In this document: positions 10,110-27,643 of the stretch, piece after piece
How positions within the stretch are numbered: position 1 is the stretch's first letter
How the letters are laid out: each line of letters starts with the position of its first letter
Assembly (NCBI RefSeq): GCF_001543325.1
Contig: NZ_CP013355.1
Coordinates: forward strand, 1-64,000
Direction of reading: 5' to 3'
DNA: 64,000 nt
DNA from: Lutibacter profundi
GTDB taxonomy: Bacteria > Bacteroidota > Bacteroidia > Flavobacteriales > Flavobacteriaceae
The notes under the pieces: generated by a model
The model's input: the letters and a program-made list of their open reading frames with translations, nothing else
The model's database searches: none
What the model was told of the DNA's origin: nothing
Position numbers and translations under genes: made by a program

Positions 10110-10613
10110 TTATGTAAAAATAATTTGTGTTCTGTCTCCGTCACACATTTCATAAAATTCACCAATAGTTAAAATTGCAGAAACCTCATCAGACAAGTCT
10201 TCTTTTTTCAATTTAAACATATCAATAGCTAATTTACAGGCAAAAAGTTCTCCACCACCAGCAGTAATCATTTCTAAAAACTCATCAACGGGAGGCATAT
10301 CTAAATCTTCCATTTGCTTTCTCATCATACTAGAAACAGCCGCTTCAACACCTGGGATTCCACCAAGAATTGTTGGGAAAGGAAGTCCGCCAGGCATTCT
10401 CATAGCAGGATTCCCTGTTGTTGCAGTATGTAAATGATTCATCGTTTTTTTTGTAATCCCATCAAGACCAAAGAAAGTAAAAAATACTTTGGTTTCAATA
10501 CCTTCCATAACGGCGCCATTAGCCATTACTAAAGTAGCGTACACATCTTCTAAAGATCCTTTAGCACAGATGAAACAGACTTTCTCTAAGGGTTTTTTTT
10601 CTTGTGAATCCAT
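10110..10613 (-). CDS. DsrE/DsrF/DrsH-like sulfur-transfer protein
   Basis: A 167-residue DsrE-superfamily protein. Members carry sulfane sulfur on a conserved Cys in cytoplasmic sulfur relays. The candidate active Cys is in LFACKLAIDMF near residue 125, the position used in DsrE2-type proteins; another Cys lies at FICAKG near the N-terminus. It is last in an operon with SQR, DUF1641 and TusE/DsrC-like genes, which supports a role in sulfide or persulfide handling. No DsrF or DsrH partner is nearby, so it probably does not form the usual DsrEFH hexamer. Confidence 0.88.
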   Translation of the reverse strand: MDSQEKKPLEKVCFICAKGSLEDVYATLVMANGAVMEGIETKVFFTFFGLDGITKKTMNHLHTATTGNPAMRMPGGLPFPTILGGIPGVEAAVSSMMRKQMEDLDMPPVDEFLEMITAGGGELFACKLAIDMFKLKKEDLSDEVSAILTIGEFYEMCDGDRTQIIFT

Positions 10614-10654
10614 ATTTAAAATATTAAATTATAATAAAATTGTTAGTTTAAAAT

Positions 10655-10966
10655 CTAAACACAACTTGTTGGTTTAGGAATACCAGCTATCTTAGATGAA
10701 AATTTTAAAGGCCCTTTTGGAAATAACTTATACAACCCTTTGATGTCAACAACTCCAGATTTACCAACGCTTCTAATTGATAAAGCTTCACCTGCAGCAG
10801 ATTTTTCGCGTAAATAATTTAAAACTTCAAAATGTTTATCGGTTAATTCAATACCAATTTCATTTGCAATTTCTTTTGCAACGTCTTCATTCCACTGTGA
10901 CATATCTTCAAGATATCCATCATCTGTAACATTAATTTGTTTACCAGCTATTGTTTTTTCAGCCAT
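10655..10966 (-). CDS. TusE/DsrC-family sulfur carrier with a single C-terminal Cys
   Basis: A 103-residue DsrC/TusE fold protein ending in IPKPTSCV. The penultimate Cys102 is the universal CysA of the swinging C-terminal arm that accepts persulfide. The second Cys of true dissimilatory DsrC, eleven residues upstream, is Ser91 here. The protein is therefore TusE- or carrier-like and not a DsrAB substrate. No dsrAB, TusBCD or tRNA-thiolation genes are nearby; its neighbours are DsrE, DUF1641 and SQR genes, which suggests that it takes sulfur from that set. Confidence 0.9.
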   Translation of the reverse strand: MAEKTIAGKQINVTDDGYLEDMSQWNEDVAKEIANEIGIELTDKHFEVLNYLREKSAAGEALSIRSVGKSGVVDIKGLYKLFPKGPLKFSSKIAGIPKPTSCV

Positions 10967-10996
10967 GATTTTTTTATTTTAATGATTATTAATTTG

Positions 10997-11683
10997 TTAT
11001 TGTTTTTCGTTTTTTATAGTAACATCTTTAGATACATTTTTCATAAAGGTAATACCATAACCTAAAGCTTTTTTCATTTCAGGACTATTCATTTCTTTAA
11101 GAACTCTCCAAATTGAGTAAGAAGGTACACTTTCTGTTTCCATACTATTAAATGCTTTAATTGCATTTTCCATAGTTCCAAGTACTTCAGGTTGTGTCAT
11201 TTCTTTAATAATAGACAAAATTGAAACTATACTATCAGCTAATTCTCTTAAGTCTTCAGGTTTAAATCCAGTTACAATATTATCCATTATAGGACCTAAT
11301 TCTTTAAAGAAAGCAAAGTATCCTTTTTGTTCAAATGTATTGAGTTGTTTTGTAAAATCTATTATTACTTCATTGGCAATTGGGCCAACTTCTTTACTTA
11401 AATCAACTGCCATTTCAAGAGTGTTCATTACCAACTTAATATTGCCAATGTTTCTTAAAAATGTAACTGCTAAATCAGTTAATTCTGAAGGGTCAATTTC
11501 TATTTGTCTTTTGTCTAATTCTACAACAGTAGAATCATACATATCTTTCCCTATAATTCCTAAATCACTCACTAAATCTTCAACAACAGTAGCATTTAAT
11601 CTTTGTTGGTTAACATAACCAAGTATTAAATCCAATTTCTTGTCGAGTGCATTTATTTGTGATTGTATATTTTTATCTTCCAT
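10997..11683 (-). CDS. DUF1641 domain protein of the SQR operon
   Basis: A 228-residue, mostly helical protein without membrane segments or cysteines. The middle part (about 95-135, KEVGPIANEVIIDF and onward) has the repetitive Leu/Ile pattern of DUF1641. Genes of this family commonly accompany sulfide:quinone oxidoreductase-like flavoproteins, as here, where it lies 20 bp after the SQR gene. Biochemical function is unknown; a structural or membrane-docking partner for SQR would be a guess. Confidence 0.8.
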   Translation of the reverse strand: MEDKNIQSQINALDKKLDLILGYVNQQRLNATVVEDLVSDLGIIGKDMYDSTVVELDKRQIEIDPSELTDLAVTFLRNIGNIKLVMNTLEMAVDLSKEVGPIANEVIIDFTKQLNTFEQKGYFAFFKELGPIMDNIVTGFKPEDLRELADSIVSILSIIKEMTQPEVLGTMENAIKAFNSMETESVPSYSIWRVLKEMNSPEMKKALGYGITFMKNVSKDVTIKNEKQ

Positions 11684-11703
11684 TATACTTTTAATAATTT
11701 AGA

Positions 11704-12936
11704 TTAAATACGTTTTTTTCCTGCCATTGACATATCTGCTTCAATAGGTAGTTCTTTTCCTTTAAGTAATATATGCCAGTATATCCATCTAAATAAAATT
11801 TTACCATAGTGGTTCATTTTGGTGTTTTTTAATAAACCAAATGGCCCAATTCCTGGTAGAGGGAATGTTCCCGGAAGAGGTTCTGTTTCATAATTAAAAT
11901 CTATTAAAGCTCCTTTTCCATGACCTGTTTCTATGTAGCAATTTGCATGTCCATCAAATTTGGCAGGTAATGCTCTTCCTTCCATTGCAGCTAAAATATT
12001 TTCCATCAAAATTTCTCCAGCAAAATGTGCTACAGAACCCGCTTTAGATGTAGGGATGTTTGCAGCATCTCCAATTACAAATATATTTTCAAATTGATCA
12101 GATTGTAGCGTGAATTTGTTTGTTTTAATGTAATTCATATCATCACCTAGTCCACTGCGTTTAACCATGTCTGAACCCATATTTACAGGTACAATAGTTA
12201 AGATATCAAAAGGAATTTCTTGTTCGTCATAAGAAATAATTTTTTTATTCTCATTGTCAACATGACTTAAATAAAAATCTGGGATTACTTTAATATTTTT
12301 TTCTTCTAATAAATCACCTAGCATTTTTGAGGCAACAGGTTTTGTGAAAGCACCAGACATAAGTGTTACGTATGAAATATTTACTTTGTCTTTCATACCT
12401 CTTTCAGCAAAATAAGCCTCTGCTAAACACACAAATTCAATTGGGGCTACCGGACATTTGTAAGGTAGTTCAGGAATACACATTACTAAGTTTCCACCTT
12501 CCCAATCTTTAAATCTTTTATGTAAAGCTAAGGCACCTTCAATAGTGTAAAAATCAAATATATCTTTGTACCATAATTTATCTTTCAAACCTTCTGTTTC
12601 CGATGGTCTAGTTTGTGTACCGGTAGCAGCAATTAAAAAATCATAATTTAAAACTTTACCACCTTCTAGGTAAACTTTATTTTCTTCACCAGCAATTCTA
12701 TCAATTGGGCTAAATATAACATCAACACCAGGAGGAAAGAAATCATATTTTGGTTTTGTAACATCTTGTTTGTTGTAAATTCCAAAAGGGATGAATAAAA
12801 AGCCAGGTTGATAATAATGAGTTTTGTATTGATCAACTATTGTTATTTTCCACTCTTCTTTATCAAGTTCTTTATGTAATTTGTTTAACATCATTGTGCC
12901 AGCAGTTCCTGCACCTAGAATAAGTAAGTTTTTCAT
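11704..12936 (-). CDS. sqr: Sulfide:quinone oxidoreductase-like FAD protein
   Basis: The protein is a 410-residue FAD-dependent oxidoreductase of the SQR family, which oxidises sulfide to sulfane sulfur and passes electrons to quinone. FAD-binding motifs are GAGTAG (8-13), the ATGTQT segment (104-109) and IFVIGDAANIP (285-295). The redox Cys pair of SQRs is represented by Cys161 (YKCPVAP) and Cys333 (NCYIETG). The additional N-terminal Cys near 125-130 of classical enzymes is missing. The C-terminus is rich in aromatic and hydrophobic residues (WIYWHILL), suiting membrane contact. It is first in its operon, behind a promoter with an FNR-like site. Confidence 0.88.
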   Translation of the reverse strand: MKNLLILGAGTAGTMMLNKLHKELDKEEWKITIVDQYKTHYYQPGFLFIPFGIYNKQDVTKPKYDFFPPGVDVIFSPIDRIAGEENKVYLEGGKVLNYDFLIAATGTQTRPSETEGLKDKLWYKDIFDFYTIEGALALHKRFKDWEGGNLVMCIPELPYKCPVAPIEFVCLAEAYFAERGMKDKVNISYVTLMSGAFTKPVASKMLGDLLEEKNIKVIPDFYLSHVDNENKKIISYDEQEIPFDILTIVPVNMGSDMVKRSGLGDDMNYIKTNKFTLQSDQFENIFVIGDAANIPTSKAGSVAHFAGEILMENILAAMEGRALPAKFDGHANCYIETGHGKGALIDFNYETEPLPGTFPLPGIGPFGLLKNTKMNHYGKILFRWIYWHILLKGKELPIEADMSMAGKKRI

Positions 12937-15904: not shown

Positions 15905-16942
15905 CTAGAATTTCACTTGAATTTGAGCTAGAAGTATATCATTATCTATGTTTATATAGGTTTCAATATGAGCTTGATAATTTAATTGAAATCTAATTTT
16001 ATCATTAACAAAGTAATTAGCACCAATAGTCATCATTTCCTGATATCCAATTTTTTTCACATCAATGTTTGGATCAAAATACTCATATTTAAAAACGGGT
16101 TGTACTTTCCATTTAGTATCATAAGAAATCATAATGTACCCTCCATCTCTTTTATTGCCTAATTCAACTGGTTCTGAGCCGCAGCCACCACCTGCCGCAC
16201 GGTTATAATCTCCTTCATCATAAATGTATTCACCTTGAATTTTTAAATTATTTAAGGTTAGTACCATTTCTCCACCATAACTTGTTCTCGTATTATCATT
16301 ATTATTTGGGTAGCCGTACCTAAAACTTCCTCCAATACTCATAAAATCAAAAAGTTTATACGATGCTCTACCAATGATATCTTTTTTTGAATTATTATCT
16401 ACAACGTTTAAACCTCTACCGTTCATTAATGCAACAGCATATCTAAATTTAGTGTATTTATTTCCACCTAGTACAATTAACCCAAAGTCACGTTGAGGAG
16501 CTACTAGTTGATCGGCAACAATAGATCTGTTAATGGTTGTTAATCCGTTACAAGGAGTATTTACTTCTAAACTAAAAGGTTGTTTAAAGGTTCCTACAGA
16601 TATTTTAGCCCAATTATATTTTTCATAAGAAACAAAAGCATCCATTAAATATGTGCTACCAACTCCACCAATAAAAGGGCTTGCTTCTAACATAAAATAA
16701 TATGAAAAATCGTCTTTAACTTTACCTCTAATACCAAATCGGGCTCTTTTAAAAGTTAGTGTATTTTCATGAATATCGTTAAAGGTATAATCATATTGGG
16801 TTTGTAGGTAACCAAAAATTTTAATTGTAGGAACAGTTCCATCTGTTGCGGCTGCAGGATCATCTCCATCACAGCCTTGTGCATAAGTATTTACTTGAAA
16901 AAAGAGTGCAAATACAAACAATATATATATATTATTTTTCAT
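15905..16942 (-). CDS. Outer-membrane porin (phosphate-selective OprO/OprP-like)
   Basis: A 345-residue outer-membrane beta-barrel protein with a cleavable signal peptide (about 1-21, ending TYAQG). Alternating hydrophobic strands rich in Tyr and Phe follow, and the C-terminus ends in a final beta strand (LLAQIQVKF). It resembles the OprO/P porin family, which passes anions. Its place as third gene after two tandem-rhodanese proteins suggests uptake of a sulfur anion such as thiosulfate or polysulfide; this is inferred from context only. Confidence 0.82.
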   Translation of the reverse strand: MKNNIYILFVFALFFQVNTYAQGCDGDDPAAATDGTVPTIKIFGYLQTQYDYTFNDIHENTLTFKRARFGIRGKVKDDFSYYFMLEASPFIGGVGSTYLMDAFVSYEKYNWAKISVGTFKQPFSLEVNTPCNGLTTINRSIVADQLVAPQRDFGLIVLGGNKYTKFRYAVALMNGRGLNVVDNNSKKDIIGRASYKLFDFMSIGGSFRYGYPNNNDNTRTSYGGEMVLTLNNLKIQGEYIYDEGDYNRAAGGGCGSEPVELGNKRDGGYIMISYDTKWKVQPVFKYEYFDPNIDVKKIGYQEMMTIGANYFVNDKIRFQLNYQAHIETYINIDNDILLAQIQVKF

Positions 16943-16963
16943 CTTAATTGAATTTATTATTCA

Positions 16964-17968
16964 TTAATTAACTAGAGGTAAATTTTTTGAAACTGAAGCA
17001 CTCCATTTGTTAGATACCCAAGCATTATTTGAGTTGTATAATCCGTTCATACCAAATGTTATACTATAAGCATCATACCCTAAAACTCTTAAATAAGCGG
17101 TAAGTACTGCAGAAGTTTGACCTGTATAGCAATAGGTAGCAATTTTAGCATTTGAGCTAGGGTCTAAACTTTGATAACCGTTTGTTGAAAGTAAAAGTGT
17201 TTCTTTAATACGGTATGCGTTAGTAATATGCCCAAAAGCATTATAATCTGCTTCACCAAAATAATTATTAACAAAATAATTATTAGGAGATGCGAGTACA
17301 TCTCCGCCAGAAACAGTTTTAAATCCGTCTGCAACTACTTGTTCAACTCTTTCTTTTAAAATTTGTGACCCATCTGTTGAAAAACTAGTTATAATAGGAT
17401 CTGAAAAAACGAGGTTAGGAGGAGCTGTTGAATAGGACCAATTTGAGTTTCCTGCTGCAGGGCTACCAATATTACTATTCCAAGGTCCTGCTGTTGCAGA
17501 GTTCCATCCAGACATTCCCCATTTTAGAGCCTGCGTATTGCTATAACCATATAAACGTAATAAGGCAGTAGCATAACAAGCAGTTTGACCCGTATAGCAA
17601 ACTACTAAAATTGGTTTGCTTTCAGCTTTAGGTGCTTCAGTTAAAATATCTGTAAATGCAACATTTTTAGCTCCTTGAATATGTCCGTCACCGTAGGATG
17701 CACTACTTCTAATGTCAATGATATAATATTTTGACAAGAAAGCATTTAAATCTGTTTCTGCAGGTTCACCCACAACAAATTTAATAGCGTCACCAGGGCC
17801 CGCTAATATATTATTAATGTCTAAATTATTACTAACTAAATAGTCTTTCATCAGCGTAAATGCTGGAGTAGCTTCACTATCAATTAAGTCATCACCTCTA
17901 TCACAAGAAGTAAGAAATAATGATGGTATTAATAATAGACCGATAAAAAATAAAGATAATTTTTTCAT
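16964..17968 (-). CDS. Lipoprotein with two rhodanese domains
   Basis: A 334-residue exported lipoprotein: the signal peptide ends in the lipobox LTSC (Cys22). Two rhodanese domains follow, each with an intact catalytic loop: CYTGQT near residue 124 and CYTGQT near 277. Rhodaneses move sulfane sulfur between thiols. The Cys-Tyr-Thr-Gly-Gln-Thr loop differs from thiosulfate rhodaneses, which often have Arg in the loop, so polysulfide or persulfide is a plausible substrate. It is a paralogue of the next gene upstream and cotranscribed with it and the porin gene. Confidence 0.87.
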   Translation of the reverse strand: MKKLSLFFIGLLLIPSLFLTSCDRGDDLIDSEATPAFTLMKDYLVSNNLDINNILAGPGDAIKFVVGEPAETDLNAFLSKYYIIDIRSSASYGDGHIQGAKNVAFTDILTEAPKAESKPILVVCYTGQTACYATALLRLYGYSNTQALKWGMSGWNSATAGPWNSNIGSPAAGNSNWSYSTAPPNLVFSDPIITSFSTDGSQILKERVEQVVADGFKTVSGGDVLASPNNYFVNNYFGEADYNAFGHITNAYRIKETLLLSTNGYQSLDPSSNAKIATYCYTGQTSAVLTAYLRVLGYDAYSITFGMNGLYNSNNAWVSNKWSASVSKNLPLVN

Positions 17969-18007
17969 AATTTTATATTTAATATTATTTGTGATAATTA
18001 GATTGAG

Positions 18008-19003
18008 TTATTCGATTACTGGGTACATGTGAATTTCTTTTTTTGAAAAGGCATTCCAATTTTTTTCTTTAAGAATCTTATTCATAAAGCTGTTAGCTCC
18101 ATAAGCTATATTGCTTGTTTTATAGCCTATCAAATTTAGATATGCCACTGCATAAGCTGCATTTTGACCAGTTGAGCAATACATTGCTATTTCTTTATTT
18201 GTAGGAAGTGTATATAAAAATGTATTAGATGCTAAAGATGAGTTAGGTTGGTATTGTATGGCTCCAGGAATATGACCATTGTTATACTTTTCTTGATCCC
18301 AATAATTTATAATATAGTAATTAGTTGGATTTTTAAAAACTTCGGCAGATTTTATGATATGTTCTCTATATGGTATTTCAAATGCTTTTTTTAATCTGAT
18401 TTTTAGAATTTCTTTAGCATCAGTTTTTCCCGTATTAAGAGTTGGGTAAATGCCTTTTTTAGCTTTAGTGTTTTTTGTAGTTTCTAATTTGTTTACAAAA
18501 GTATTTGCAATATTTTTTTCCCAAGAATTTTCGGCAAAATCTTCTCTCCAAGAACTCATTCCCCATTTCATACTATAAGTATTATTATAGCCAGCCAATC
18601 TTAAAAGGCTTGTGTAATATGCTGCAGATTGACCAGAATAACAGATTAAAATAATTTTGCTGTAATCACTAGCATTTATTTTATTTTCAAAATAAGTAAG
18701 TAATTCTGAAGCCTTAACATTATGAGCATTTTTTAAATGTCCATATTCAAACCAACTCTCACTTCTAATATCAATTATATGATATTTTACATTTTTTAGG
18801 TTCTTTTTAACTTCATTTGCAGTAACTAAGGATGGAGCTAATTCACTATTAATAAAGTTACCGTTTTCTTCTAAATATTGAACAAGAAGTTCAAATTCAG
18901 TTGGGCTATAGTTAGCTTGTTTTTTTTCTGAATTTTTAAACCCACTAAATAAAGTTGCAGTTATAAAAAGTAGTACTAAATATGTTGTTAATTTTTTCAT
19001 CAT
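18008..19003 (-). CDS. Exported protein with two rhodanese domains
   Basis: A 331-residue paralogue of the neighbouring lipoprotein. The signal peptide (about 1-22) has no lipobox Cys, so the mature protein is probably soluble in the periplasm. Catalytic loops are CYSGQS (near 119) and CSTGQN (near 273), both with the active Cys. It is first in a three-gene operon (two tandem rhodaneses and the porin) behind a promoter with an FNR-like palindrome. The division into one soluble and one lipid-anchored protein suggests hand-over between compartments, but this is inference. Confidence 0.87.
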   Translation of the reverse strand: MMKKLTTYLVLLFITATLFSGFKNSEKKQANYSPTEFELLVQYLEENGNFINSELAPSLVTANEVKKNLKNVKYHIIDIRSESWFEYGHLKNAHNVKASELLTYFENKINASDYSKIILICYSGQSAAYYTSLLRLAGYNNTYSMKWGMSSWREDFAENSWEKNIANTFVNKLETTKNTKAKKGIYPTLNTGKTDAKEILKIRLKKAFEIPYREHIIKSAEVFKNPTNYYIINYWDQEKYNNGHIPGAIQYQPNSSLASNTFLYTLPTNKEIAMYCSTGQNAAYAVAYLNLIGYKTSNIAYGANSFMNKILKEKNWNAFSKKEIHMYPVIE

Positions 19004-19303
19004 GTAAGTAATTTAAATTAAATGAATGTCTTAATTATTACATCTAAATTAAATACAGATGAATTTTATTTATATGATATTTATCATGCTACATGTAATA
19101 AATATTTATTCTTTATAGTAACAATTGTTACAATATAATGTGTTGTGTAACAATTGTTTAACTATTGTATTTTGCAATTTTATTTTCGCTATTAATTTGA
19201 GGTGTTTAAAAACGAAAAAGGAATAAATTATTTTAAAAAATAAGGTAAAAAAAAGCTGTTTTTAATTTTAAAAACAGCTTTTTTTTTACTTTAATTATAA
19301 AAA
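19004..19303 (-). promoter_or_regulatory. Sulfur-regulon promoter 2 (tandem-rhodanese/porin operon)
   Basis: This 300-bp gap holds no gene. On the minus strand TAATTTAG at 19051-19044 stands 23 bp from TGATATTTATCA at 19075-19086, a palindrome identical to that at promoter 1. Further upstream are a perfect 14-bp GTAAC-AATT-GTTAC palindrome at 19118-19131 and a near copy (GTAACAATTGTT) at 19147-19158. The far end holds the terminator of the operon that ends at 19304. Confidence 0.75.
19247..19287. terminator. Terminator of the psrABC-yedE-GGC operon
   Basis: Long arms with the core AAGCTGTTTTTAA and its complement, flanked by an A run on one side and a T run on the other, lie 17 bp after the stop of the last gene in the operon. 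Confidence 0.88.
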
Positions 19304-19903
19304 CTAACAACCACCTTCAGCTACCTTCTTTTTCTTTTTTTTGAGTTTTATAATTTTTTTTGGTGCTTTTTTAACAACTGTAATTTTACCCGAGTTGGCT
19401 TTTTTCATAAATTCGGCATAATTTAAGATAGGTTTTTCTAACGGGTAACTTTCTACAATAAGTTTATCATTTTTATACTTTAATTTAGCACAAAGTACTT
19501 TTGTATTTTTTATACCAAGTTGGGTTAAAAGCATCCAAGCACCACTAGCATCTTCAGGAGTTTTAGCATATAAAACAATTGTTTTATTTTCTTTATTTAA
19601 TTGTTTAATATATGATTGTTGTTTAGGTTCTAGTAAATCTGGAGTATAAATATTTACTGCATTTTTAATATACCCTTTGTTGTACTCATAAGGGCTTCTT
19701 ACATCAATTAAAGCGCCATCAATACTATCTAAATCTTTTATTTGCAGTATGTAATCTTGTTTTACTATATGATTTAAGATTAAATTTTTATCATTTTTGA
19801 AAATATTTTTAGGGCGTTTAAAGCTTAAAACTCCTATAAAAATTATTAAAATGAATAGTACAGCAGATATTGAAATCCTTTTTGTTTTTTCTAATTCTTT
19901 CAT
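19304..19903 (-). CDS. Membrane-anchored rhodanese-like protein with C-terminal GGC tail (1)
   Basis: A 199-residue protein with one N-terminal membrane segment (about 11-28) after basic residues, which places the rest in the periplasm. A rhodanese fold follows (IDVRSPYEYNKGYIKNAVNI at 66-85), but the active-site Cys is replaced: the loop reads VLYAKTPEDASG, with Ala113 where Cys is expected. The last 23 residues are a Lys-rich tail ending KKVAEGGC. Only two Cys exist, Cys138 and the terminal Cys199. The tail is nearly the same as that of the preceding gene, which suggests it carries the function, perhaps as a flexible persulfide arm. It is last in the psr operon. Confidence 0.82.
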   Translation of the reverse strand: MKELEKTKRISISAVLFILIIFIGVLSFKRPKNIFKNDKNLILNHIVKQDYILQIKDLDSIDGALIDVRSPYEYNKGYIKNAVNIYTPDLLEPKQQSYIKQLNKENKTIVLYAKTPEDASGAWMLLTQLGIKNTKVLCAKLKYKNDKLIVESYPLEKPILNYAEFMKKANSGKITVVKKAPKKIIKLKKKKKKVAEGGC

Positions 19904-19929
19904 AATGTTATTTTAAATATAAATTAAAA

Positions 19930-20577
19930 TTAGCAACCACCTTCAGCAACTTTCTTTTTCTTTTTAGTAAGTTTAATAACCCTTTTAGGTGCTTTTTTTA
20001 CTGTTTTATGAGATGTATTACCAACACCAAAATACATTCCAGCTGCTATTCTTGTGTTATATTTATCAAATTCTTTTTTAGGAGCTGTCTCTTTAGGTAT
20101 TTTAGGATTAATAATTGTGCTAAACCATTTATTTAAGCCACCTTCAAGTACATATAAGTTTTTATATCCTAATCTATTGCAAAGGAAATAGGCTTGATCT
20201 GAATAATAATTATCATTGGAGTACAATACAACATCAAATGCATCTTGATTTAAATAAGCTTCTGAATCTGATGATAACACTTCTGCTAAAGGAATATTAA
20301 CGGCATTAGGTAAAGAGTATTCTTCAAATTCCTTTGGAGTTCTCACATCTACTAATAAAATTGTAGGATCTTGATTTATTAACCTATTTGCCAGTTGATC
20401 TGTATTTATATACCGTTCAGCGCTTAAAACATTAAGTAAAAAAGCTTGTGGGGTAATACCTTCATTTTTTTCATATTTAGGAAGAAGAACTAATCCTGCA
20501 GATAAAATAATTAATATGGCTGCTAAAATTTGATACCTTCTAACTAAAAACTTTTTATATTTATATGATTTTGACAT
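19930..20577 (-). CDS. Membrane-anchored rhodanese-like protein with C-terminal GGC tail (2)
   Basis: A 215-residue paralogue of the following gene. It has a basic N-terminus, one membrane segment (about 16-33), a rhodanese fold (LVDVRTPKEFEE at 75-86, NAVNIPL at 91-97), and a Lys-rich tail ending KKKKVAEGGC. The catalytic Cys position in VVLYSNDNYYS is Ser120. Its two Cys are Cys133 and Cys215. LEGGLNKW near 144-151 is the usual rhodanese ending, so the tail is an addition beyond the fold. It lies 12 bp after the second YeeE/YedE gene. Confidence 0.82.
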   Translation of the reverse strand: MSKSYKYKKFLVRRYQILAAILIILSAGLVLLPKYEKNEGITPQAFLLNVLSAERYINTDQLANRLINQDPTILLVDVRTPKEFEEYSLPNAVNIPLAEVLSSDSEAYLNQDAFDVVLYSNDNYYSDQAYFLCNRLGYKNLYVLEGGLNKWFSTIINPKIPKETAPKKEFDKYNTRIAAGMYFGVGNTSHKTVKKAPKRVIKLTKKKKKVAEGGC

Positions 20578-20589
20578 AATTTTTAAGGT

Positions 20590-21180
20590 TTAATAAAATA
20601 CTTTTTTAACTTTTTTTCGAATTAAATCTGCTATATAAAATAGTGCTATTGCTAAAATTGAAAATAGAAATATAAACCAATAAGGTGATATTCCTAATGA
20701 GTCTACAACGGTAATATGACCAAGATATGAACCATCAAACATTGGTTCTAAAAATGTAAAGAATTCAGAAAAAACAAAAACACCTATCAATATTCCAACG
20801 CCATAGGCCATAGCATCAATTTTACCAATTGCTATTGCACAAAGGTCTGTTCCAGGGCAAAAACCACCCATTACAAAACCAAACCCCATAACAATGCCAC
20901 CAACAATAGATGCCCATAAGTAAGTTGGATGAATATAAAGTTGAGATATATTTAGAAACCCTAAATAATCCATATAATAAACACCAATTACAGAGACTAA
21001 GACTGCTGTAAAAAAGACTTTAAGTACCACAAAATCGTAGCCATAAAATACGCCTGCTAATTTTCTTGAAGAAGAAAACCCCGAAGCTTCTAGTATGTAT
21101 CCAAAAGCGATACCAATAAACATTGCAATAACAAAATTCCACTCTGTAGGAATTACACCATTAGGAATTAAAGGTCCCAT
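20590..21180 (-). CDS. YeeE/YedE-family sulfur transporter, second half
   Basis: A 196-residue inner-membrane protein from the ATG at 21180, with four to five hydrophobic segments. The motif GFGFVMGGFCPGTDLCAIA carries the conserved Cys of the YeeE/YedE (TsuA) family, which imports thiosulfate or other sulfur compounds. It pairs with the upstream gene; together they equal one full-length TsuA. A longer frame extends upstream into the first-half gene, but the ATG at MGPLIPNG leaves a natural 19-bp gap. Confidence 0.88.
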   Translation of the reverse strand: MGPLIPNGVIPTEWNFVIAMFIGIAFGYILEASGFSSSRKLAGVFYGYDFVVLKVFFTAVLVSVIGVYYMDYLGFLNISQLYIHPTYLWASIVGGIVMGFGFVMGGFCPGTDLCAIAIGKIDAMAYGVGILIGVFVFSEFFTFLEPMFDGSYLGHITVVDSLGISPYWFIFLFSILAIALFYIADLIRKKVKKVFY

Positions 21181-21199: not shown

Positions 21200-21730
21200 T
21201 TAAATCCAGTTTTTTCTAAAAAAGTAAGCAAATAAATAACCACTACCAAAAATGGTAAGTACTGTTATAAAGCCTCCTGTTGATAATACGGCCATACCAC
21301 TTAAGCCTGCTCCGCTTGTACACCCTCTTGCTAATTGAGCTCCAAATCCAAAAAACGCACCTCCAAGTAAGGCAAAAATCAGTCGTCTTTTAGATGTTAT
21401 TTTAGGAGAATGTTGTACAAATAATTTAAGCCTACCGCTTAAAGCACCTGATAAAAACCCACCAATTAAAATACCTAAAGATTCAAATACTAGCCAAGTA
21501 TTCATTGGAGTATCATCTTCTTTTATGAATTTTTCATAATAGGCATTATTTTCGGCATGTGTTGGGGCAATGTCATCTACAACGGTAACCACTGTGCTTT
21601 TAAAAGCACCACTAGCTCCCAAACCTCTACCTGTTATGTAAAAAGTAGCAAGAATTAAGATTCCTAATAAGAACCCTCCAAAATAAGGATTCCAATATAC
21701 ATGTCTATTTTTTTCAATATTAACTTTCAT
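21200..21730 (-). CDS. YeeE/YedE-family sulfur transporter, first half
   Basis: A 176-residue membrane protein with about four hydrophobic segments. The motif GFGAQLARGCTSGAGLSG near 127-144 carries the conserved Cys. It is the N-terminal half of a split YeeE/YedE transporter and probably works as a complex with the next gene product. Its position between the Psr-like enzyme and the GGC-tailed rhodanese-like proteins suggests that it takes sulfane sulfur handled by them. Confidence 0.88.
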   Translation of the reverse strand: MKVNIEKNRHVYWNPYFGGFLLGILILATFYITGRGLGASGAFKSTVVTVVDDIAPTHAENNAYYEKFIKEDDTPMNTWLVFESLGILIGGFLSGALSGRLKLFVQHSPKITSKRRLIFALLGGAFFGFGAQLARGCTSGAGLSGMAVLSTGGFITVLTIFGSGYLFAYFFRKNWI

Positions 21731-21741
21731 ATCTTTATTTT

Positions 21742-22701
21742 TTAGTATAAGAATCTTGTTAATTGACCTGCATTTATCATAACAATTCTAAATATTAGGC
21801 CTCCCATTAATACAAGAAGGGCAGGAACTATGACGGGTACTTTAAACCCAATTACTTCTGTAAGTTCTAAAATTGCAGGTACTATTAAACCTAGGATAAT
21901 TACAAAAACAAAAAACATAACAGTGTATTGTCCGCTAATTAATATTTGCATTGCTTCCAATTGAACTTGAGAACCAGCAGCCATTCCCATAAACATATGT
22001 ATAATTAAAGCTAATTCTAAAATAATTAATCCTAAATCAATTTTACTTATTAATTTACGTTCAAAGTGATTTTTAGAGAATAATAATATAGCAGCTGCCC
22101 CTGTTGATAGACCCGATGTTAAGAATAAAGGGCCTAAAATAGCATTATTCCAAAGAGGTCTGGCATTAAAAGCAGATAATAATATACCTGTATAAACCCC
22201 TAAAATAATTGATAATGGAATTAAGGCAATTGCAATATATTTTCTATTTTTAATAATATATTTTTCAAAGGAATTTAAAAATTTTAATTTTTTAAATACT
22301 TGTAATTTACTTTCTAATTTTGGATATGTTTCTCTATAATAACTAAATACCCATAACATAGATAGTGGGGTAATAATTAATAATACCCAAGCTCCCCATG
22401 ACATAGGAGAAGTTATTCTTATCGTAGTATATAATCTCCACACATATAATTTATGAGTTAAATCAAAAAAAAGTGCAGCCAAACCAATAACTAAAGCTAT
22501 TGGAGCAATTATGGAAGCGTATTTAACTGTTGCTGGCATTTCATTTTCTTTTTTAAGAAGATAGAATAATGCTGTAAAAAACAAGATACCTGCAGCTAAA
22601 CCACCTAAAAATAAATATAAGGATATTTCCCAGTGCCAAATTTCTAAATATGGATCTATTTTAGGAATGTGTCGTCCACTTACGAAAATTTCTTCTTGCA
22701 T
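21742..22701 (-). CDS. psrC: NrfD/PsrC-family quinone-interacting membrane subunit
   Basis: A 319-residue membrane protein with eight to nine hydrophobic segments, of the NrfD/PsrC family. These subunits anchor molybdoenzymes of the polysulfide, thiosulfate, tetrathionate or sulfite group and exchange electrons with quinone. EIWHWEISLYLFLGGLAAG near the N-terminus is the typical first-helix motif. It is third in the operon after the catalytic and iron-sulfur subunits. Confidence 0.9.
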   Translation of the reverse strand: MQEEIFVSGRHIPKIDPYLEIWHWEISLYLFLGGLAAGILFFTALFYLLKKENEMPATVKYASIIAPIALVIGLAALFFDLTHKLYVWRLYTTIRITSPMSWGAWVLLIITPLSMLWVFSYYRETYPKLESKLQVFKKLKFLNSFEKYIIKNRKYIAIALIPLSIILGVYTGILLSAFNARPLWNNAILGPLFLTSGLSTGAAAILLFSKNHFERKLISKIDLGLIILELALIIHMFMGMAAGSQVQLEAMQILISGQYTVMFFVFVIILGLIVPAILELTEVIGFKVPVIVPALLVLMGGLIFRIVMINAGQLTRFLY

Positions 22702-22710
22702 AATAATATT

Positions 22711-23247
22711 TTATTTAATTAAATAATATACGTTTGGACTTGTTCCTGCTTCAGGTGCCAAAACTTTGTGTTTTCTAGTTTTTAGTAATTCAGATATTTC
22801 ACTTGTAGGATCATCTAAATCACCAAAATACATGCATTTTGTAGGGCAAACTTCTACACACGCAGGTTGTTTACCTTTCTCTAGCCTATGATGACAAAAA
22901 GTACATTTGTCTACATATCCATCAGGATGTTGATATCTGGCATCATAAGGGCAAGACTCTATACAAGCACCGCATCCAATACATTCATCTTCCGTAACCA
23001 TTACAATACCGCCTTCTACAATATGACTAGCACCTGTAGGACAACAACGCACGCAAGGTGCATTGTCACAGTGATTACAGCGTTCAGATTTTAGTTCTAA
23101 ATCTATTGTAGGATATGCACCATTTACAGTTTCAGTTACCCAATCTCTACAATATCCCATTGGAACATTATTTTCGGTTTGGCAAGCCACTACACAATCA
23201 CTACATCCAACACATTTTAATGTGTCAATTACCATTGCATATCTCAT
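22711..23247 (-). CDS. psrB: 4Fe-4S electron-transfer subunit (PsrB/PhsB-like)
   Basis: A 178-residue ferredoxin-like subunit with sixteen Cys forming four [4Fe-4S] sites: CVGCSDCVVAC, CNHCDNAPCVRCCP, CIGCGACIESCP and CTFCHHR-to-CVEVCPTKC. It passes electrons between the molybdenum subunit and the membrane subunit. No signal peptide is present, as expected if it is exported with the Tat-signal-bearing catalytic subunit. The start overlaps the stop of psrA by 4 bp. Confidence 0.93.
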   Translation of the reverse strand: MRYAMVIDTLKCVGCSDCVVACQTENNVPMGYCRDWVTETVNGAYPTIDLELKSERCNHCDNAPCVRCCPTGASHIVEGGIVMVTEDECIGCGACIESCPYDARYQHPDGYVDKCTFCHHRLEKGKQPACVEVCPTKCMYFGDLDDPTSEISELLKTRKHKVLAPEAGTSPNVYYLIK

Positions 23248-25487
23248 ATTTCAATATTTTTATGTGGATCTTCAGTTAAAATTTTCACAAAATTACCTCT
23301 AAGTCCTGTTCCACCCATTAATGGGTCAATATGAACTTTAGAAATCATTTCTGTATCGCTAATACCTTTGCCAAAGGCTCTGGTTAATTTTTTATCATTG
23401 TGACCAAAGCCATGATATAAATACACAGAATCCCATCGTATTCTCTCTGTTACTCGTACTTTGATTGAAAAAGTAGATATAATTCCGTCTTGGTTTTCAA
23501 GCCAAACAACTTGCTCGTTTCTCAAATCTAATATTCTTGCAACTTTTGGATTTATCCATAATTTATTAGTGTCTTTAAGTGCACTTAAATTAGGGTTGTT
23601 AATAGTTCTACTAAAAGTATGCATAGGAGATCTACCATAATTTAATCTGTAATAACCTTGAGGAGGCTCAGGATGTGGAGTATAAATAGGCATTGGGTCA
23701 AACCCTTTAGAGGCTAACTCATCAGAATAGAATTCAATTTTACCACTATTTGTTGCAAATTCATAATCTTGACCTTTTTCTAAGAAGAGAGGTCCAGATT
23801 TTCTTTCAAATTTTTTAACTCCAATTTTTTTCATTTCATCTAGTGAAGTACCTAATTTGTTCAGCTGCCATTTTATAACATCTTCAAAATCGTTATAATC
23901 AAAATAATCATGTAAACCTAAGCGCTCTCCTATTTGTTTACTAATCCACCAAGCTGGTTTAGATTTGTATTTAGGTTTTGCAACAGGCTGTCTTAATGCA
24001 ATTGAAGGCTCTCTATTTGTTGCAGATCTAATACCGTCGTAGCGTTCTAAGTATGTACATTCTGGCAAAACAACATCTGCATAACCAGTAATTTCCATAG
24101 GCATGGTGTCAATTACTACAAAAAACTCTAAGGCATCCATTGCTTTTAAAATCATTTCTCTGTCGGGTACTGTATTAATTAAATTTGTACCAGCAACAAT
24201 CCATCCTTTTATTGGATGTTCAGTATTCTCATTAGGTATTGTTGCTTTTATAAGCTCTGATGTAATACCCATTTCTGCATATGGATATTTTTCTCCAATT
24301 TCTTCCCAACCCCATTTTGGAGTAGGGTAGGCAGGCTGTGGGTATTTAGGTATTTTAATTTTTTCTTTAAAGTAAAAACCACCTCTATTACCCCAAGAGC
24401 CTAATAATCCATTTAGCATTGCTATTGCCCTTTCTCTTTGAGAATCGTCGCCATACCAAACAACATGACGTCCTGGGTGAATAATTGTAGAAGGTGCAGC
24501 AGCAGCCATTATACGAGCAGTTTTTCTAATTTCTTCAGGTTTTATAGTTGTTATACCATAAGCCCATTCAGGAGTAAAATCTTTTACGTGTTCTTTAAGT
24601 TCTTTAAGGCCATACCCATATTTATCAACATATTCTTTATTGTAAAGGTTTTCATAAATAAGTACATGCATCCAAGCGAGTAGTAAAGCAATATCGGTTG
24701 AAGGTTTAATAGCTAACCAATGTTCAGATTTACTTGCTGCGGTAGATAACCTTGGATCAACTGTTATTATAGTAGCGCCATTATCTATAGCGTCAGACAT
24801 TTCTTGTACTTGTGTATTGTGCATATTTTCTCCAATATGAGAACCAATGAGTACTAAACATTTAGTATCCCTAATGTCTGTTGGTTCAGGAGAACCAATC
24901 CAAGAACCTACTGTTAAACCAAATCCAGTTTCTCTTGGTCCTCTACATTGTGCATAGGCAGGTTCAGCAATGGTATCAGATCCGTAAGATTTGAACAAAT
25001 GCTCTAAGTGACTTCCAGGTGAACCATGTTTTAATAAAGCAAAACTTTCAGCTCCATATTTAGATTTTACATCTTTCATTTTTGATGCAATTAAATCTAA
25101 GGCTTCATCCCAAGAGGCTTCTCTATACGTTTGTTCGCCATTAATAGTTGTTCTAATTAAAGGGGTTTTAAGTCTGTCACCATCATTATACATACCAACG
25201 CCGCCAGTTCCTCTAGGGCATAGGCGTCCATTACAATGCGGATCAATTTCATTACCTTTTAATTTGATAATTTCACCCTCTTCATTGGTATATGCCCAAG
25301 CGGCACATTTCCAAAAGCAAACTTCACAATAAGTAGCAGTTCGTTTAAACTTTGTAGCAACATTTTGTTTTACTAAATCATCTAAATATGTATTAGCTCC
25401 AAACATATTTAATGCTGATGTTGACGCTGCTACACCTCCTAAGCCTAAGGCTGAAATTTTAATAAACTTTCTTCTTGATGTAGTCAT
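23244..25487 (-). CDS. psrA: Molybdopterin oxidoreductase catalytic subunit (PsrA/PhsA/SoeA-like)
   Basis: The 747-residue catalytic subunit of a complex-iron-sulfur molybdoenzyme. A Tat signal (TSRRKFIK, residues 3-10) indicates export. The N-terminal FeS site has C54, C57, C61 and C90. Cys181 in YAQCRGPRETG sits where PsrA/PhsA enzymes have their molybdenum ligand. Likely reactions are reduction of polysulfide or thiosulfate, or the reverse. The rhodanese and SQR neighbours favour sulfur chemistry, but substrate and direction cannot be fixed from sequence. No maturation chaperone gene lies in the operon. Confidence 0.9.
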   Translation of the reverse strand: MTTSRRKFIKISALGLGGVAASTSALNMFGANTYLDDLVKQNVATKFKRTATYCEVCFWKCAAWAYTNEEGEIIKLKGNEIDPHCNGRLCPRGTGGVGMYNDGDRLKTPLIRTTINGEQTYREASWDEALDLIASKMKDVKSKYGAESFALLKHGSPGSHLEHLFKSYGSDTIAEPAYAQCRGPRETGFGLTVGSWIGSPEPTDIRDTKCLVLIGSHIGENMHNTQVQEMSDAIDNGATIITVDPRLSTAASKSEHWLAIKPSTDIALLLAWMHVLIYENLYNKEYVDKYGYGLKELKEHVKDFTPEWAYGITTIKPEEIRKTARIMAAAAPSTIIHPGRHVVWYGDDSQRERAIAMLNGLLGSWGNRGGFYFKEKIKIPKYPQPAYPTPKWGWEEIGEKYPYAEMGITSELIKATIPNENTEHPIKGWIVAGTNLINTVPDREMILKAMDALEFFVVIDTMPMEITGYADVVLPECTYLERYDGIRSATNREPSIALRQPVAKPKYKSKPAWWISKQIGERLGLHDYFDYNDFEDVIKWQLNKLGTSLDEMKKIGVKKFERKSGPLFLEKGQDYEFATNSGKIEFYSDELASKGFDPMPIYTPHPEPPQGYYRLNYGRSPMHTFSRTINNPNLSALKDTNKLWINPKVARILDLRNEQVVWLENQDGIISTFSIKVRVTERIRWDSVYLYHGFGHNDKKLTRAFGKGISDTEMISKVHIDPLMGGTGLRGNFVKILTEDPHKNIEI

Positions 25488-25640: not shown

Positions 25641-25747
25641 TTAATGATGATAATAAGCTGTTTTGAAATGAATTAGATTTTAGTTACTGTTCTATTATTT
25701 TTAATATAAAAACATTTATTATTGTAAATTTGAGCATAATTAAATTT

Positions 25748-27643
25748 ATGAAAGTAAAATATTTTAAATTTTCTTTTTTTGTACTGTTAATTTTAATATT
25801 AATTACAGTATTTTATTTTAAGAATAAAGATAGCTTAGGCCTAGTAGAGATTGTAGAAACAGAGTATTCAGTGCTAGAAAATAGAAATGAAGAATCTTGT
25901 TTAACATGTCATCAAAATACGAAAGGATATTCACAATATCATAACCCTGAATTAATAGGATGTGCTAGTTGCCATTTGGGAGATGCTAAAACTACAAACA
26001 AAAAGGAGGCTCACAAAGGAATGATTTTAATACCGGGTAATTTAATCGATGCAGCTGCAACCTGTGGAAAATGTCACCCAAATGAACTTCATAAAATAAA
26101 AAACTCTTTAATGACCACTAATAGTGGTATAGTAGCAGTTGATAAATATATTTTTGGGGAGGCTAATTCTCCAGATTATCACTATCATATAAAGGATATA
26201 AAAAACTCTGCAGCTGATAAGCATATACGTGATTTATGCGCTAACTGTCACTTAGGAGCAGCAAAAGAGGAATATGGAGAAATAACAAATATGAGTAGAG
26301 GTGGAGGCTGTAATGCTTGCCATTTAAATTATTCAAAAGAAGCTAAAGCTGCTTTAGCTTCCTATATATCTTCTGATAAAAAAGAATTACCAAAATTTCA
26401 TCCTTCAACAGATATTTTTGTTACTAATACCCATTGTTTTGGTTGTCATAGTCGATCAAGTAGAATTTCAACTAATTATGAAGGTTGGCAAGAAACATTG
26501 CTAGATGTAGATTCATTAGCAAATAAGAAAGAGTTTAGAATTTTAGAAGGAAGCAGGGTATATAAGTATGTTGAAGAAGATATACACCATACAAAAGGGT
26601 TGTTATGTATAGATTGTCATTCTTCGCATGAAGTAATGGGAGATGGGAAAAAATATGCTCACGAAGAACAAGCTGTAAAATTACAATGTGCAGATTGTCA
26701 TTTTAAAGAAAAACCAATTACAATACCATATGATTCTCTAGATCAAGAGAGTTTGTTAGTTTTTTTACATAGAAATTATTCACATACAAACAAGCAAATT
26801 ATTGTAGCTAAAAAAGATAAGCATCCTTTAGTGAATACATTTGTAGATTCGTTAGGGAATGCATTTCTAATTGGCAAAAAAGATGGAAAATTACATTCTT
26901 TAAAACCTCAATCTGAAGTTTGCGCTAGAGATAAAGCACATCAAGAGCTTAGTTGTTCTACTTGTCACTCAACTTGGACTTCTCGTTGTATTGGTTGTCA
27001 TACTGGATTTGATAAAAATGAACCAAGGGCTTTTGATTTATTAGATAAGAAATATGGAAAAGGACAATGGAAAGAATATGTTGCTGAATTTTCATCATCA
27101 TTACCAGCAATGGGAGTTAGAGAATCTAAAACAGAAAAAAAGATTGAACCGGCAATACCGGGAATGATTTTAACTATTGATAAAGGAAGTTATAAAGGCA
27201 AAGAGAAGGGAACAGACCTTTCTTTTCATAGATTATATGCTCCAAATTCACCACATACTACATCAAAAAAAGTAAGAGATTGCAAAAGTTGTCACGTAAA
27301 CTCAGCTGCAATTGGGTATGGTAATGGAGAATTAAAGTATAATATTAAAAATAATATTGGAAAATGGGTATTTAACCCTGAATATGCTTTGAATGAAAAT
27401 GATGGTTTACCAGAAGATGCTTGGATTCCATTTTTAAAAGAAGTAGACCAAAATACAATTAATTCAACTCGGTTAGATTTTAGACCTTTTACAGTTGTAG
27501 AGCAAAAAAAAATACTATTAATAGGAGCTTGTTTGCAATGTCATAAAAGTGATTCTAAAGTGATGCAGCAGAGCTTGGTTAAAGGAATTAAACCTTTGTT
27601 TCAAAAGTTAACAAAAAAATGTATCTTGCCTACTTGGAATTAA
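25748..27643 (+). CDS. Membrane-anchored dodecaheme cytochrome c
   Basis: A protein of 631 residues from the ATG at 25748, with one N-terminal membrane anchor (about 5-22) and twelve CXXCH heme sites: CLTCH, CASCH, CGKCH, CANCH, CNACH, CFGCH, CIDCH, CADCH, CSTCH, CIGCH, CKSCH and CLQCH. It should act in the periplasm as a redox enzyme or electron conduit. I do not recognise a known multiheme enzyme family. The earlier in-frame TTG at 25730 lies inside the predicted -7 box, so it is not the start. The gene is divergent from psrA and shares its regulatory region, which suggests that it is an electron partner of the Psr-like complex. Confidence 0.88.
   Translation: MKVKYFKFSFFVLLILILITVFYFKNKDSLGLVEIVETEYSVLENRNEESCLTCHQNTKGYSQYHNPELIGCASCHLGDAKTTNKKEAHKGMILIPGNLIDAAATCGKCHPNELHKIKNSLMTTNSGIVAVDKYIFGEANSPDYHYHIKDIKNSAADKHIRDLCANCHLGAAKEEYGEITNMSRGGGCNACHLNYSKEAKAALASYISSDKKELPKFHPSTDIFVTNTHCFGCHSRSSRISTNYEGWQETLLDVDSLANKKEFRILEGSRVYKYVEEDIHHTKGLLCIDCHSSHEVMGDGKKYAHEEQAVKLQCADCHFKEKPITIPYDSLDQESLLVFLHRNYSHTNKQIIVAKKDKHPLVNTFVDSLGNAFLIGKKDGKLHSLKPQSEVCARDKAHQELSCSTCHSTWTSRCIGCHTGFDKNEPRAFDLLDKKYGKGQWKEYVAEFSSSLPAMGVRESKTEKKIEPAIPGMILTIDKGSYKGKEKGTDLSFHRLYAPNSPHTTSKKVRDCKSCHVNSAAIGYGNGELKYNIKNNIGKWVFNPEYALNENDGLPEDAWIPFLKEVDQNTINSTRLDFRPFTVVEQKKILLIGACLQCHKSDSKVMQQSLVKGIKPLFQKLTKKCILPTWN

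Follow-up and report, generated by a model that had tools for sequence, protein, structure and literature searches.

In a 64,000-nucleotide stretch of the Lutibacter profundi genome (RefSeq assembly GCF_001543325.1, contig NZ_CP013355.1, positions 1 to 64,000; hereafter, the window), two adjacent genes, A and B, encode rhodanese-fold proteins in which the catalytic cysteine of the rhodanese loop is absent and a conserved cysteine stands at the C-terminal tail. The genes share an operon with a two-gene YeeE/YedE-type channel and an enzyme resembling polysulfide reductase, and across the Bacteroidota their relatives are tied to this type of channel and to one of two periplasmic reductases. We consider it probable, at roughly six chances in ten, that A and B are periplasmic sulfur carriers, and that the tail is a tethered arm that passes sulfane sulfur between the reductase and the first cysteine of the channel. 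By analogy, the best reading of the tail is a carrier arm that would be SoxY-like in its design and Sud-like in its role.

A role for such a protein would fill a gap in the current picture of sulfur import. The way in which sulfur is presented to YeeE-type importers from the periplasm is under discussion, with SoxYZ, DsbA, and SoxS considered as possible donors in the SoxT paper (PMC11582611). The widespread Bacteroidota group to which A and B belong is a good candidate for this missing part: a putative donor, conserved in many Bacteroidota as a neighbor or fusion partner of the channel, with one thiol to mutate. Its parts are known, namely the rhodanese fold, the YeeE channel, and the swinging-arm carrier; a cysteine moved to the tail and the frequent fusion to the channel appear to be undescribed within the literature searched. 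No description of such an arm was found among the open-access papers listed, as judged by titles, abstract beginnings, and passages. L. profundi LP1T is itself from an Arctic vent biofilm, and its genome paper mentions sulfide:quinone oxidoreductase (SQR) and polysulfide reductase; the word "rhodanese" is absent from the main text (PMC5219744).

Rhodanese folds and C-terminal tails

Both proteins belong to the rhodanese superfamily, with PF00581 scores of 58.5 and 59.8 bits for A and B against a cut-off of 22.2. An AlphaFold2 model of B, built from a 40-row alignment, has a mean predicted local distance difference test score (pLDDT) of 86 and a predicted template modeling score of 0.68, and a Foldseek search with this model returned mostly rhodanese-related entries. 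Each protein is anchored by one hydrophobic helix, modeled at residues 3-30 in B, and hydropathy together with the positive N-terminus places the rhodanese part in the periplasm. A preliminary description of this DNA had reported paired, anchored, periplasm-facing rhodanese folds in which the catalytic cysteine is replaced by Ala113 in one and Ser120 in the other, with near-identical Lys-rich GGC tails, and this observation is confirmed. The two proteins share the C-terminal end KKKKKVAEGGC. When the whole L. profundi genome (one contig of 2,966,978 bases) was scanned for codons specifying AEGGC followed by a stop, the pattern was confined to A and B, with none in the reversed control. Residues 183-215 of B are unstructured in the model, which was made for B alone (block pLDDT of about 56-67). 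The tail is predicted to be disordered in B and is mostly basic in composition, with its cysteine at the tip of an arm of about 30 residues.

Close relatives were collected by scanning an 84,980-species collection with two peptide patterns that lie outside the tail, a scan that reaches close relatives only. It returned 163 relatives, of which the best 80 loci were kept, as ranked by a tblastn search whose query was full-length B with its tail; A and B copies within them were chosen by their similarity to A and B of the window. An alignment in which GC endings were universal (29/29 and 27/27) is not used as evidence because its open reading frames (ORFs) had been selected by that ending. All 80 loci, which we denote by L numbers, are from Bacteroidota, with hosts including Lutibacter, Polaribacter, Mariniflexile, Mangrovimonas, Winogradskyella, Maribacter, and others, through to Bacteroidales and Saprospiraceae assemblies. 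The loop residue of B is Ser in 79 of 79 copies, and that of A is Gly in 70, Ser in 3, Ala in 2, and His in 1 of 76 copies. With the loop cysteine gone, A and B are ruled out as active rhodanese sulfurtransferases.

The tail cysteine, on the other hand, is retained. The final residue is Cys in 78 of 79 complete B copies and the last three residues are GGC in 77, the exceptions being L146, which ends SGGCG and so has no final Cys, and L145, which ends EEGC. Among complete A copies, 72 of 76 end in GGC; in L135, the reading frame of A is interrupted and its tail is encoded in a different one. The terminal cysteine is therefore the conserved thiol, and with the modeled tail of B this supports in part the earlier proposal of a swinging arm. 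That each protein has one other cysteine, as had also been noted, holds in this genome (Cys138 beside Cys199 in A, Cys133 beside Cys215 in B) and is not conserved: the terminal residue is the sole cysteine in 22 of 79 B and 52 of 72 tailed A copies.

The ending is otherwise rare in these loci, where only six other GGC-ended ORFs occur among 6,204 complete ORFs of at least 50 amino acids (aa): two overlapping 60-aa ORFs, the broken L135 tail, and a rhodanese-like ORF in each of L143, L124, and L145 (L143:7082-8209, L124:11586-12644, and L145:16392-16907). Two of these rhodanese-like ORFs match the double rhodanese at 18008-19003 of the window, one of the two being from a genome with a tailless A; in L124, where A is without its tail, a double rhodanese ends QEGGC.

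The tails of A and B are also matched to one another within a genome. Over the ten residues before the last four, A-B identity in 72 genomes is 0.825 within the same genome, a value reached by none of 10,000 permutations, and 0.516 between genomes. Where relatives with 55-90% core identity exist (68 genomes), the A tail is 0.83 identical to the B tail of its own genome, compared with 0.57 for orthologous B tails.

To look beyond close relatives, we used profile searches that covered the Bacteroidota. A profile of 17 B proteins, tail included, matched 55 of 395 genomes at E ≤1e-12. The ORFs of all 59 listed matches plus second copies in the same loci, minus one L037 ORF (a double-rhodanese fragment running off its locus), gave a sample of 61 members. 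A cysteine lies within the last three residues of all 61 and is the very last residue in 57; it is preceded by Gly in 60, and at least three K/R fall within the last 14 residues in all 61. The ends themselves vary (for example, KKKKREGC, SKRVIGGC, LVRMGC, GGCG, GGCT, GGCA, and one FQC), and the tail cysteine is the single cysteine of the entire ORF in 20 of the 33 members without homology to a YeeE half. A loop cysteine is present in 2 of 61. As a control, we took the 30 best-scoring loci of the ordinary rhodanese family among 41 genomes of this phylum, choosing the ORF in each by its strand and position, and none of the 30 has a cysteine in its last three residues. Conservation across loci, the phylum sample, and the control rhodaneses together rule out the tail as a product of chance or a local repeat.

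Because the first profile contained the tail, the search was repeated with a profile restricted to the rhodanese core. This tail-free profile matched 88 of 395 genomes at E ≤1e-9, and adding the 36 matches absent from the earlier sample brought the table to 97 ORFs. Loop cysteines were counted in three alignment columns, as a single-column table had missed a cysteine shifted by one. On this count, 62 ORFs have the tail cysteine only, 29, which are ordinary rhodaneses, the loop cysteine only, 3 both (L055, L056, and L163, the last with its loop cysteine one column off), and 3 neither, a split with a Fisher P of about 5e-18 if relatedness is ignored, the sequences not being independent. Within the class that has neither, L256 is a broken member whose rhodanese frame stops early, with a KPKKKKREGC tail downstream in another frame. 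It appears that the shape of the rhodanese fold has been retained and its reactive cysteine moved to the tail.

Ties to the channel and to two reductases

The gene order PsrA-PsrB-NrfD-YedE-YedE-B-A is nearly invariant in the 80 loci. A same-strand PsrA accompanies 73 of them, and 77 have the two YeeE halves. In the seven loci without PsrA (L075, L076, L088, L113, L117, L123, and L136) the match starts no more than 1.3 kb from the upstream contig end, and contig ends likewise account for the loci without YeeE halves, except L142. Both partners that the preliminary description had assigned to the tail, the Psr-like enzyme and the channel, recur, and the tabulation of GGC-tailed rhodaneses and their gene neighbors that it had suggested reveals a pattern broader than one genome.

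The most direct tie is covalent. In the 61-member sample, 28 proteins are also homologous to the second YeeE half and are therefore channel-rhodanese fusions. For the fusion in L243, a hydropathy count puts more positive loops on one side of the membrane and the rhodanese on the other, which fits a periplasmic rhodanese. Four plasmid records contain homologues, each covering 31-45% of a fusion query and its channel part only. The association also holds when approached from the channel. PF04143 was searched in 148 genomes and found in 79; among 30 of these loci, each the best-scoring one of its genome, 27 carry a rhodanese that matches the core profile and ends in GC (one GGCT, one GGCG). The remaining three are a full-length YeeE (L205) and two loci classed as short pairs (L229 and L234).

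Both channel halves of the window belong to the Sulf_transp domain family, at 58.1 and 87.5 bits against a cut-off of 27. The single cysteine of gene 1 is conserved in 95 of 97 aligned sequences; in gene 2, Cys131 is present in 97 of 97 and Cys137 in 79 of 97. We set the start of gene 2 at the ATG of MGPL by choice, the listed ORF opening with TTG at 21249. When gene 1 is aligned with S. thermophila YeeE, its Cys137 falls on Cys293, which is the first cysteine of the latter channel (E 0.00094; counted along the alignment), so that the relay cysteine of position 293 is present in gene 1. From the half of PF04143 that gene 2 covers, and from the account of split channels in PMC11582611, we infer that its Cys131 is the counterpart of Cys91.

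In S. thermophila YeeE, the parts of PMC11073785 that concern the relay give the cysteine order as C293, C91, and C22, with C22 adjoining the cytoplasmic partner YeeD. By position, none of the conserved cysteine columns here seems to correspond to the third cysteine (Cys22), and in view of that order the cysteine with no apparent counterpart is the exit one. This speaks against an initial idea, now abandoned, in which the split channel lacked an entry cysteine and the arm provided it.

More distant relatives indicate which of these partners is constant. In 20 distant loci of up to 17 kb, chosen by hand and not at random, there is one arm ORF each, fused to the channel in half or more; the arm protein is doubled in flavobacterial loci and some Bacteroidales. 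Ten of the 20 contain a cytochrome with eight CxxCH motifs together with a YeeE half, a GGC-ended fusion, and an ORF of 218-250 aa (the YeeE half of L240 is counted, though masked by an overlapping ORF). Two of these ten cytochromes score 569 and 568 bits with TIGR04315, above the cut-off of 375, which places them in the octaheme tetrathionate reductase family, and in one locus the adjoining ORF is a PF01292 cytochrome b. Nine of the 20 instead have PsrA with PsrB and/or NrfD (L241, L245-L247, L249-L251, L253, and L254), L241 having the fusion as well, and L248 has neither reductase type. Because PsrABC and the octaheme family are unrelated, the constant pair is the channel and the arm. Two smaller features of these loci are a MerR-type regulator between a multiheme cytochrome and PsrA (L245:2336-2779) and ORFs of 148-198 aa directly before PsrA in L241, L246, L247, L249, L253, and L254.

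A proposed sulfur-carrying arm and its alternatives

The proposed mechanism begins with a rhodanese fold that, having lost its catalytic cysteine, probably serves as a docking scaffold, its reactive thiol relocated to the tip of a flexible C-terminal arm that is polybasic in most members. The Lys cluster could attract anionic polysulfide or thiosulfate, and the GGC thiol would be loaded as a persulfide or S-thiosulfonate. The arm might then swing back and forth, reaching on one side the operon's periplasmic reductase and on the other the mouth that the two-gene YeeE/YedE channel presents to the periplasm. At this mouth, the thiol would hand sulfur to gene-1 Cys137 or take it up, the reductase acting as source or sink. 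In this scheme, the arm would be the periplasmic counterpart of YeeD, whose cysteine is a "fourth cysteine" on the cytoplasmic side, and nearby cytoplasmic SQR, DsrC/TusE-like, and DsrE2-like proteins could take over the sulfur. It is tempting to speculate further, and quite tentatively, that a "zeroth cysteine", joined covalently to YeeE, loads the channel by collecting sulfur at a periplasmic reductase and feeding it into the relay as bound sulfane sulfur, with the rhodanese fold turned from an enzyme into the hinge of an arm across many Bacteroidota families. If this is true, sulfur would cross the membrane without ever being a free solute.

Several known systems share elements of this design. 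SoxY ends in GGCGG, and its cysteine is described as binding sulfur substrates as the swinging arm of a periplasmic carrier (PMC6067878, PMC5336275). The likeness lies in a cysteine among glycines at the C-terminus, whereas A and B have a rhodanese fold with an anchor helix, a basic arm, and a link or fusion to a YeeE channel. Only PF00581 matched A and B in Pfam, and thus the SoxY domain is absent from them; the full GGCGG end was not found in the A/B group, where ends are GGC or GC and at nearest GGCG; and no SoxZ-, SoxA-, or SoxB-like product is named among the annotated neighbors. A few members do end GGCG, one residue beyond the cysteine (L146:4136-4843, L148, and L161), a form half-way to that of SoxY.

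In Wolinella succinogenes, Sud is a periplasmic rhodanese encoded beside PsrABC that is thought to bring polysulfide sulfur to PsrA, and it carries this sulfur on its rhodanese-loop cysteine. The genes described here likewise encode a rhodanese fold together with a polysulfide reductase, but the loop cysteine is gone and the thiol is on the tail. The 1qxn chain, which we take to be Sud (it is deposited as "sulfide dehydrogenase"), is a weak sequence match (E 6e-4), and it does not appear when the core profile's 18 hits are listed. DsrC/TusE, to which the preliminary description had compared the tail, is a cytoplasmic sulfur carrier of a different fold with its C-terminal cysteine on a mobile arm. 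Apart from that shared arm the comparison is weak, with SoxY and Sud closer; membership is rejected, as neither A nor B matches TIGR03342.

As for the channel, YeeE(TsuA)-YeeD(TsuB) is described as importing thiosulfate by a cysteine relay in which the partner YeeD carries a further cysteine (PMC11073785). The arrangement here also pairs a YeeE-family channel with a cysteine-bearing partner; YeeD, however, is cytoplasmic and TusA-like, whereas the partner here is periplasmic, has a rhodanese fold, and is often covalently fused. Division of the channel into two half-size genes recalls PmpA/PmpB and YedE1E2. In the split YeeE PmpB/PmpA there is one conserved cysteine per half, at positions 91 and 293 (PMC11582611). 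The halves here are longer than those of PmpA/PmpB and YedE1E2, and the short-pair loci L229 and L234 are without a GC-ended rhodanese.

A number of observations count against the arm as a sulfur carrier. In L055 and L056, which form one genus-level group, a cysteine at the loop position (LLYCE) stands beside the tail cysteine (KREGC), possibly as an intermediate state or a regained loop cysteine. Some tails are acidic or little charged, the net charge of the last 30 residues falling to -3 and -5 (in L143 and L145, for example). Gene 2 has no match to any solved structure, including the solved YeeE. Homologues in the same context that lack the terminal cysteine were sought as evidence against the arm, and they are limited to three A copies of one clade: those of L108, L123, and L124 (B 82-84% identical) stop before the tail, and the B tail is kept in all three. 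A strong match to B was found in 29 of 36 same-genus genomes (60 relatives were examined), and the orthologue is absent from the other seven, four of which (G007, G018, G019, and G036) are at least 99% complete; the operon is therefore dispensable. Codon identity at matching tail residues is 0.66, compared with 0.56 expected from each genome's own codon usage, and so gene conversion, and not a shared partner, could account for part of the match between the A and B tails; there is some sign of such a contribution, with a match that is strong at the protein level too.

A further exception is L142 (Robertkochia; L142:9977-11355), which retains PsrABC and both tails with no dedicated YeeE genes adjoining, and whose genome has YeeE elsewhere only as two pairs of the short type. 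The arm is therefore not strictly dependent on that channel, and the locus fits either a direct arm-to-reductase role or the use of another channel. Its B is also the only one of 79 that starts like a lipoprotein (LTQC, a lipobox). L142 lends weight to an alternative in which the arm serves only to supply the reductase, whether PsrA or the octaheme enzyme, with sulfur from polysulfide, as Sud is said to do for Psr in Wolinella, and is merely co-expressed with YeeE. We regard this as unlikely, since 28 of 61 members are fused to a half of the channel itself, and the channel stays the same beside two unrelated reductases.

A somewhat more doubtful alternative is that the tail thiols carry no sulfur and form structural or regulatory disulfides, pairing between A and B or between two copies, or locking onto a channel cysteine as a redox switch. 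The concerted sequence of paired tails within one genome and the oxidising periplasmic location would suit such a role. However, the 20 distant loci have one arm ORF each (pairing between two copies of one protein could still occur), in three cases A has lost its tail and B has not, and a structural role has no need of a Gly-Gly, Lys-rich, disordered tip.

Lower again in probability, and in our judgment improbable, is a cysteine arm that serves an Ext-like respiratory system by binding a metal ion or selenium or tellurium species. In Geobacter, the reduction of selenite and tellurite is influenced by ExtI (PMC5877670), some YedE proteins are named putative selenium transporters, and the window has an ExtM-like cytochrome (229 bits; cut-off 800) and a weakly ExtI-like porin (40 bits; cut-off 150), each scoring well short of its cut-off. 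Against this, the fusion branch accompanies an octaheme cytochrome that scores above the cut-off of the tetrathionate reductase family in the two loci tested, the window contains SQR, DsrC/TusE-like, and DsrE2-like genes, and the Lys-rich tip fits anions better than metal cations. A sorting, processing, or membrane tag, in which the polybasic tail adheres to lipid or undergoes cleavage or lipidation at its last cysteine, would suit a polybasic stretch beside a C-terminal cysteine in a membrane-anchored protein and is nonetheless highly improbable, given the anchor helix already present (and the lipobox of L142), the tail on channel fusions, and the single G, S, T, or A past the cysteine in several members, so that no fixed C-terminal cysteine carboxylate is needed.

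Among these possibilities we favor the sulfur-carrying arm. Whatever its chemistry, the combination of a dead rhodanese, a Lys/Arg-rich tail, a GC end, and a split YeeE provides a searchable mark for sulfur-cycling clusters.

Neighboring genes in the window

The genes discussed above and their neighbors are listed in Table 1. Beyond A, in the region of the double rhodaneses and porin, lies a Crp/Fnr-type regulator. Just past A, at 19250-19295, an inverted repeat and T run (aaaagctgtttttaattttaaaaacagctttttttt) look terminator-like by eye and would separate A from the double rhodaneses.

Table 1. Coordinates of the operon and nearby features in the window.
Feature	Position	Strand	Details
Gene A	19304..19903	-	199 aa; anchor helix, rhodanese fold, Ala113 at catalytic position, Lys-rich tail ending VAEGGC (Cys199)
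Tail of A	19304..19405	-	Last 33 residues (14 K+R, 1 D+E) and stop codon
Gene B	19930..20577	-	215 aa; anchor helix 3-30, rhodanese fold about 43-156, Ser120 at catalytic position
Gene B, C-terminal part	within 19930..20577	-	Helix 167-182, then predicted disordered Lys-rich tail 183-215 ending VAEGGC (Cys215)
Tail of B	19930..20031	-	Last 33 residues (11 K+R, 1 D+E) and stop codon
YeeE/YedE half, gene 2	20590..21180	-	PF04143 positions 8-153, N-terminal half; conserved Cys131, Cys137 (listed-ORF numbering)
YeeE/YedE half, gene 1	21200..21730	-	PF04143 positions 172-308; single Cys137
NrfD/PsrC-like membrane subunit	21742..22701	-	
PsrB/NrfC-like 4Fe-4S subunit	22711..23247	-	
PsrA/PhsA-like molybdopterin enzyme	23244..25487	-	PhsA model 463.6 bits, below cut-off 694
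ExtM-like multiheme cytochrome	25730..27643	+	Divergent, upstream of PsrA; 229 bits, cut-off 800; relative in 65/80 loci
Double-domain rhodanese	18008..19003	-	Cys in both loops (ICYSGQS, YCSTGQN); candidate partner; relative in 45/80 loci
Double-domain rhodanese	16964..17968	-	VCYTGQT, YCYTGQT; candidate partner
Porin, weakly ExtI-like	15905..16942	-	40 bits, cut-off 150; candidate outer-membrane substrate entry

The segments 15905-19003 and 25730-27643 resemble a distant Geobacter extHI/extM selenite-tellurite cluster, with both Ext matches far below their cut-offs. Sulfur-relay genes lie further away, at 10110-12936. They include a DsrE2-like gene (93 bits, below the cut-off of 210), a DsrC/TusE-like gene at 10655-10966 (TIGR03342, 83.3 bits; cut-off 53.5), and a type III SQR of the selenoprotein subtype (626 bits; cut-off 525). 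Genes like these three are also found near the operon in several relatives.

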